From NCBI GenBank assembly GCA_902515745.1, contig CABXWB010000001.1:62001-126000 (forward strand): a stretch of DNA of 64,000 nucleotides, read 5' to 3'. The DNA is from an uncultured Alphaproteobacteria bacterium. GTDB lineage: Bacteria > Pseudomonadota > Alphaproteobacteria > HIMB59 > GCA-002718135. The notes beneath the pieces were generated by a model. That model saw only the letters and a list, made by a program, of their open reading frames with translations, made no database searches and was not told the DNA's origin. Below are positions 41,457 through 43,532 of the stretch, in pieces. Both the position numbers and the translations under genes were made by a program. The first letter of the stretch is position 1; every line of letters begins with the position of its first letter.

Positions 41457-41831
41457 TTAATTTTCTAAACTCAACTTACTAAAAAATGAACCCTCTTTTT
41501 GTAACCAAGAGTTAATCATATTAAAAAAATTATTGCTTAAGTAGTAATTTTTTATTCGTCTATCTGTTTTACTTTGTTCTTTTACAAAAATATTTTTTTC
41601 CAACGCTTCGTTTAAAATTGATTGAATAGATGATCTAGAACCAATTGACTTGGGTATATTTGCACAAATTGTTTCAAATGAAATTCCATTTAATTTATTA
41701 TTTTCATAGATCTCTAGAGAAATGACATGGTGTAAAATTGATTTAAATAAAAATTTTGAAACATAATCTTCTGAAAAAAAACTAGAATAAATGTTTCTTT
41801 TTTTTTCTTTTATAATTTCTGTTTCAGTCAT
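41457..41831 (-). CDS. Hypothetical winged-helix-like regulator (124 aa)
   Basis: ICANIPKSIGSRSSIQSILNEALEKNIFVKEQSKTDRRIKNYYLSNN resembles a MarR-type wHTH; SD-like GAGAGGG upstream. Confidence 0.6.
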   Translation of the reverse strand: MTETEIIKEKKRNIYSSFFSEDYVSKFLFKSILHHVISLEIYENNKLNGISFETICANIPKSIGSRSSIQSILNEALEKNIFVKEQSKTDRRIKNYYLSNNFFNMINSWLQKEGSFFSKLSLEN

Positions 41832-43217: not shown

Positions 43218-43243
43218 TAATCCTCCATTATAAATTTCACAGT

Positions 43244-43266
43244 ACATGGCTCACACTGAGTCATGT
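43244..43266 (-). promoter_or_regulatory. Leader hairpin between the riboswitch pair and the amtB SD (possible expression platform)
   Basis: Minus strand ACATG-a-CTCA-gtg-TGAG-c-CATGT: 9 bp with one internal mismatch. Confidence 0.45.
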
Positions 43267-43309
43267 GTTACTTTTCATGCTTAGCTATGGAAATTAATTA
43301 CTAAGATCC

Positions 43310-43360
43310 GCGTTCCTTCGGTTTAACCTACTTCCGATTTGCAAACTGCAAATTGAACGA
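43310..43360 (-). ncRNA. Glutamine riboswitch (glnA RNA motif), promoter-distal copy
   Basis: Minus strand TCGTTCAATTTGCAGTTTGCAAATCGGAAGTAGGTTAAACCGAAGGAACGC: P1 CGTTC/GAACG, P2 ATTTGC/GCAAAT, conserved CGGAAGTAG, P3 GGT/ACC, CGAAGGAACGC. Confidence 0.88.
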
Positions 43361-43376
43361 TTTTATAACTTTGCAT

Positions 43377-43428
43377 GCGTTCCTTCGACTTTCGTCTACT
43401 TCCGTCATTCAAAAAGAATGATGAACGT
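43377..43428 (-). ncRNA. Glutamine riboswitch (glnA RNA motif), promoter-proximal copy
   Basis: Minus strand ACGTTCATCATTCTTTTTGAATGACGGAAGTAGACGAAAGTCGAAGGAACGCA: P1 CGTTC/GAACG, P2 TCATTC/GAATGA, CGGAAGTAG, P3 GAC-GAAA-GTC, CGAAGGAACGC. Confidence 0.88.
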
Positions 43429-43532
43429 AATGGTGGTTTACTTTATTATTAAAATTTATTAAGAATATTTAAGTAAAGTTTGCTATGCATTTTTTGCATG
43501 AATAAAAAAATACAAGAAAACTAAGGAAAAAT

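Follow-up and report, generated by a model that had tools for sequence, protein, structure and literature searches.

Upstream of amtB in an uncultured alphaproteobacterium lie two similar structured RNA elements, recognized in an earlier note as copies of the glnA motif. This locus raises the question of whether the pair is a glutamine riboswitch, how it might act on the transporter gene, and what part it could play in nitrogen control of its host. The window is the whole 64,000-nucleotide stretch analyzed, to which coordinates refer unless a locus is named (Table 1).

Two glutamine aptamers in the amtB leader

An Rfam search of the 64-kb window matched both copies, on the minus strand, to the glutamine riboswitch aptamer RF01739, and apart from this pair nothing in the window reached the Rfam threshold. 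The covariance-model test that the earlier note had proposed thus places both copies where the motif had been reported, far above the gathering score of 35, with model positions 1 to 53 covered by each. Aptamer 1 comprises P1 (CGUUC/GAACG), P2, and P3, with cores CGGAAGUAG and CGAAG; stems and cores agree with the previous description, but the reported spacing of 16 nt needs correction, as 18 nt (43377-43360) separate the P1 stems. The pair lies 90 to 210 nt upstream of an intact amtB on the same strand, and the Pfam and PDB matches of the gene product (Table 1) bear out the assignment of the element to the leader of an ammonium transporter gene.

An alignment of 52 diverse homologous leaders shows invariant cores, whereas in each of the two aptamers P2 and P3 vary on both sides. 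The aptamer stems contain 182 double-changed cells, against a shuffle mean of 55, and 97.5% of stem cells are paired, compared with 25 to 37% when the partners are slid, so that the claim of covarying stems around a conserved core holds. Because the stems of the two copies differ and covary, the simple duplication of one hairpin is ruled out. With scores above gathering, a P1-P2-P3 junction, a position in the leader of a nitrogen-metabolism gene, and two like aptamers in one leader, the glutamine-I class and tandem layout are, as judged from sequence, essentially certain.

The remainder of the amtB leader contains a hairpin between a candidate anti-initiation box and the Shine-Dalgarno (SD) region, with no U-run after it on the minus strand. 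No intrinsic terminator was found on the minus strand of the leader, the sole match being on the plus strand, and whole-leader stability (z = -0.57) was dismissed as evidence. Directly 3' of amtB is a 124-amino-acid (aa) ORF (41457-41831, minus strand) with no Pfam match, which in the relative G221 sits between two amtB genes and which may encode a small regulator. Farther away, at 14868-37365, many ORFs resemble by eye genes of sugar and sugar-acid catabolism (xylulokinase-like, dehydratases, lactonase) and an ABC sugar transporter.

Table 1. Features of the amtB locus and tandem aptamer pairs of the window's genome
Feature	Position	Strand	Basis
amtB, ammonium transporter, 428 aa	41931..43217	(-)	PF00909, E 9e-98; best PDB matches are Amt proteins
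Shine-Dalgarno region of amtB, AUGGAGG	43222..43228	(-)	Sequence
Hairpin ACAUGACUCA-GUG-UGAGCCAUGU, between box and SD	43244..43266	(-)	Sequence, fold
P4 3' strand (AUAGCU 43288-43283, GCAUG 43280-43276), predicted	43276..43288	(-)	Box in 156/156 readable leaders
Candidate anti-initiation box AUUUCCAUA, complementary to SD AUGGAGG	43286..43294	(-)	Duplex prediction; shuffles ~10-16%
Aptamer 2, glutamine-I riboswitch	43311..43359; Rfam bounds 43307-43361	(-)	RF01739, 59.7 bits, E 1.2e-10; homologue covariation
Inter-aptamer linker, predicted P4 5' strand (CAUGC 43377-43373, AGUUAU 43370-43365)	43360..43377	(-)	Length, RNAalifold, complementarity
Aptamer 1, glutamine-I riboswitch	43378..43427; Rfam bounds 43374-43429	(-)	RF01739, 64.0 bits, E 7.3e-12; homologue covariation
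Tandem pair 1 of the window's genome	amtB leader		
Tandem pair 2 of the window's genome	Gap between glnB and glnA		
Tandem pair 3 of the window's genome	Leader of ATP-grasp/Alpha-E/transglutaminase operon		

Predicted pairing between the linker and a downstream box

We collected 186 riboswitch leaders and counted the linker between aptamers from the last C of GAAC. It is 17 to 20 nt long in 158 leaders of the alphaproteobacterial type, which span four target families, and 10 nt in the other tandem type, represented by 18 leaders from SAR86 and other Gamma- and Betaproteobacteria; in 73 tandems on viral contigs it is 9 to 12 nt. When RNAalifold was run separately on the alignments of the four targets, each paired the linker with a box 3' of aptamer 2, yielding a predicted helix, P4. 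For amtB, P4 joins CAUGC-AA-AGUUAU with AUAGCU-AA-GCAUG; the glnA box reads AUAACU-AGA-GCAUG, the internal loop having three nucleotides on both sides, and the inner part of the helix is predicted as four pairs in the glnA alignment. A joint alignment of 52 leaders, in which glnA is mis-registered by one base, returned only the outer five pairs. These five are present in all 156 readable long-linker leaders and the full eleven in 149 of the 156, while the box was found in none of the 18 genomic short-linker tandems, none of the 73 viral tandems, and none of the true single copies.

Substitutions in P4 are one-sided only, with linker and box conserved almost as sequence, and linker-box complementarity is matched by 3 to 7% of shuffles per leader, which is moderately better than chance. 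The support for P4 is therefore conservation rather than covariation. Together, the fixed linker and the linker-box helix suggest that the two aptamers may be coupled.

The tandem RF01739 pairs with linkers of 9 to 12 nt are followed by one small basic ORF, roughly 35 to 65 aa in length and ending, for example, in KKDVFFPYYL or YITDNPFYP. Such loci occur in SAR86/Gammaproteobacteria (L053:5393-5681, L038, L052, L069, and L080), in Betaproteobacteria (L056, L074, L092, and L143), and on viral contigs (L266-L340). Their SD sequence follows closely after aptamer 2 within a hairpin of the CAUCU...AGAUG type, a layout like that of an ON switch, and the small ORFs are possible analogues of glutamine synthetase (GS) inactivating factors. 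In divergent members of the host genus (L162, L210, L224, and L238), a different ammonium-transporter gene is preceded by a single glutamine aptamer that has neither P4 nor the box.

Direction of control

We consider it likely that the tandem riboswitch reduces translation of amtB at high glutamine, that is, that it acts as a translational OFF switch. At low glutamine, the linker after aptamer 1 would pair with the 3' box region to form P4, which would hold the box off the ribosome-binding site (RBS) and allow AmtB to be made. Glutamine bound at the base of P1 would draw the C that follows P1, with which P4 begins, into the binding site; with P4 weakened, box AUUUCCAUA could pair with AUGGAGG and block initiation. 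The presence of two aptamers might render the response steeper or wider.

In glutamine-I aptamers, the ligand contacts the terminal P1 pair (C1-G59), and a long-range pair caps P1 (PMC6698751). The box and the inner strand of P4 share AUA, and therefore box-SD pairing and P4 should compete. The pair capping P1 presumably involves the C that immediately follows P1. In the present leader this C also opens P4, and glutamine binding to aptamer 1 should accordingly destabilize the helix and free the box. Another possible competitor is the aptamer 2 core, whose GGAAGU pairs with the box in the predicted minimum-energy fold. In glnA leaders, duplex prediction pairs the box AUUUCAUA with the start region UAUGAAAU, and where one glnA leader carries a box of the amtB type, its SD is of the amtB type as well. 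In several relatives, the box of the ATP-grasp leaders is complementary to the start-codon region of a short upstream ORF (e.g., MIGIKFGFINTSFISSY), located between aptamer 2 and the ATP-grasp start, as at L156:2900-3020.

Measured against shuffles, box-RBS complementarity is weak, at 10 to 16% for the amtB and glnA leaders and 39% for the ATP-grasp leaders. Enforcing the aptamers during folding raises predicted box-RBS pairing, by count, in 97% of glnA, 85% of amtB2, 79% of amtB1, and 60% of ATP-grasp leaders, though mean pairing in the ATP-grasp leaders falls. Because the predicted accessibility of the RBS barely shifts under the same constraint, with a slight change in amtB2 only, the OFF direction is drawn mainly from physiology, in that a cell would not be expected to raise AmtB and GlnA at high glutamine.

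These folding results are also compatible with the opposite polarity, in which bound aptamers stabilize a compact P4 fold and expose the RBS. Folded aptamer 2 would bring the strands of P4 together, and cyanobacterial relatives activate expression, with glutamine raising gifB (PMC6316151); we nevertheless regard an ON switch as unlikely here, since more amtB and glnA at high glutamine would make little physiological sense and the bound aptamer probably requires the first base of P4. The weak box-RBS complementarity, and the conservation of box and linker almost as sequence, would suit a riboswitch that acts mainly on transcription or RNA decay, with P4 and the box serving a structural or protein-binding role and no anti-SD switch. 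The glnA leaders also carry a GC-rich hairpin followed by UUUU, but the amtB leader has no minus-strand terminator, and in both amtB and glnA leaders the complementarity of the box falls on the SD or the start codon, which makes this explanation improbable.

It is more doubtful still that the elements are relics, or of changed specificity, no longer sensing glutamine or answering to a related ligand. The affinity of the class is only millimolar (PMC6698751), yet the cores of both aptamers are invariant in 52 of 52 leaders, covariation in P2 and P3 is strong, and the targets amtB and glnA are glutamine and ammonium genes. Translational repression at high glutamine remains the likely reading.

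Probable glutamine sensing by RNA in a lineage without GlnD and GlnE

The window's genome (1.62 Mb in 42 contigs; window G+C content, 29.6%) has six RF01739 matches, forming three tandem pairs (Table 1). The third pair precedes an operon encoding a circularly permuted ATP-grasp protein (PF14403), an Alpha-E protein (PF04168), and a transglutaminase-like protein (PF01841). Genomes of AEGEAN-169/HIMB59 are 1.26 to 1.84 Mb in size, with a mean G+C content of 29.5% (PMC10308909), values that agree with those found here, so that the host is probably HIMB59/AEGEAN-169-like; the alphaproteobacterial host that had been proposed is supported. A survey of related leaders, also suggested in the earlier note, found aptamers before glnA and amtB paralogues elsewhere in the genus: in G221, which is better assembled, another amtB, likewise behind a tandem leader of its own, lies about 2 kb downstream of the first; this second transporter is absent from the window. 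Across the genus, RF01739 is present in 36 of 37 genomes, the sole exception (G015, 82% complete) also lacking a detectable PII gene.

GlnD, by textbook account the glutamine sensor of proteobacteria, was detected (TIGR01693) in all 24 genomes of the sister family but in none of the 37 of the genus, and GlnE (PF03710) in 22 of 24 and 0 of 37, respectively; GlnD was not found in the 96%-complete G221 either. The absence of GlnD and GlnE from the genus is well supported. Sigma-54 (RpoN) was not found in any of the 61 genomes of the genus and sister family, and matches to NtrC were all below the cut-off. The genus retains PII, whose T-loop reads STGGIDPNDGYDDEF or similar in the three sequences recovered and is remodelled relative to the E. 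coli-like HTELYRGAEY of the sister family. Since the alignment of these three sequences has a tyrosine in the Tyr51 column, loss of Tyr51 was dropped and only remodelling of the T-loop is claimed. PII loci with the remodelled loop include L245 and related loci and, in the window's genome, C2:22296-22616.

The riboswitch occurs in 36 of 37 genomes where GlnD and GlnE are absent and in 0 of 24 genomes of the nearest relatives, even with laxer filters, a comparison that amounts to one phylogenetic contrast in which most genomes of the genus are incomplete. In a class-wide sample, RF01739 was found in only 6 of 387 genomes, two from the genus and four from family f10; the latter have one copy each, which in the three read precedes the same ATP-grasp gene. 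A general rule of either a glutamine riboswitch or GlnD is ruled out because f10 genomes have both (three of four shown) and many of the GlnD-less alphaproteobacteria (108 of the 387 have no GlnD match) have no riboswitch.

Within this lineage, glutamine sensing by RNA appears to stand in for the GlnD/GlnE protein cascade, and because both proteins are missing, the RNA regulon is probably the main glutamine sensor. We find it evenly balanced whether a tandem-aptamer RNA regulon, unified by the linker-box helix and controlling ammonium uptake, glutamine synthetase, and an amidoligase-type operon, replaced the GlnD-GlnE sensor. The notion of a protein-independent nitrogen sensor, voiced before the genomes were compared, gains support from the absence of GlnD and GlnE, the sensing being putative. 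Among streamlined ocean bacteria, these two sister families would form a clean natural contrast, in which one keeps GlnD and GlnE and has no riboswitch whereas the other has tandem riboswitches and neither protein, an RNA sensor having taken over from a protein cascade.

Parts of the context that the earlier note inferred to be new were already known. The glnA RNAs, some of them tandem, were described in 2010 before genes for PII, GS, GOGAT, and ammonium transporters (PMC2864571), and a 2022 review counted 157 doublets (PMC9481103); where the earlier note suggested a cooperative sensor, that review places tandems of this kind among the pseudo-cooperative ones. Marine metagenomes had thus established the family, the tandem arrangement, and the link to ammonium transporters. 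What goes further here is the regulon of three tandem leaders, its apparent replacement of GlnD and GlnE, and the predicted linker-box helix. A 2018 review restricted the class to cyanobacteria, environmental sequences for these targets aside (PMC6316151), and a 2025 paper mentions that glutamine riboswitches were confined to Pseudomonadota in one survey (PMC12452182). The environmental glnA-amtB riboswitches, assigned to uncultured strains in the 2018 review, here gain a host. Upregulation of Anbu in Pseudomonas putida ties a related operon of Anbu, ATP-grasp, Alpha-E, and transglutaminase genes to nitrogen limitation (PMC5666114), and the poorly understood ATP-grasp/Alpha-E/transglutaminase operon is now linked to glutamine status in two alphaproteobacterial families.

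The elements resemble the marine-metagenome glnA RNAs (RF01739) in aptamer sequence and structure, in tandem copies, and in their ammonium-transporter and glutamine synthetase targets (PMC2864571, PMC9481103). They differ in belonging to an alphaproteobacterial lineage of a named order whose members lack GlnD and GlnE, in the linker of 17 to 20 nt and the linker-box helix outside RF01739, and in having the ATP-grasp operon as an extra target. The cyanobacterial gifB riboswitch (type 1) shares the aptamer class but is an ON switch controlling a GS inactivating factor (PMC6316151); here an OFF switch is expected because GS and the transporter are themselves the targets. Like the tandem glycine riboswitch, the pair consists of two similar aptamers joined by a short conserved linker upstream of one gene, but ligand and fold are different. 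A functional parallel is the GlnD/GlnE/PII cascade, which likewise senses glutamine and tunes GS and ammonium uptake in response, a role that is putative for the RNA; that cascade is protein based, whereas this genus lacks GlnD, GlnE, and RpoN and keeps PII.
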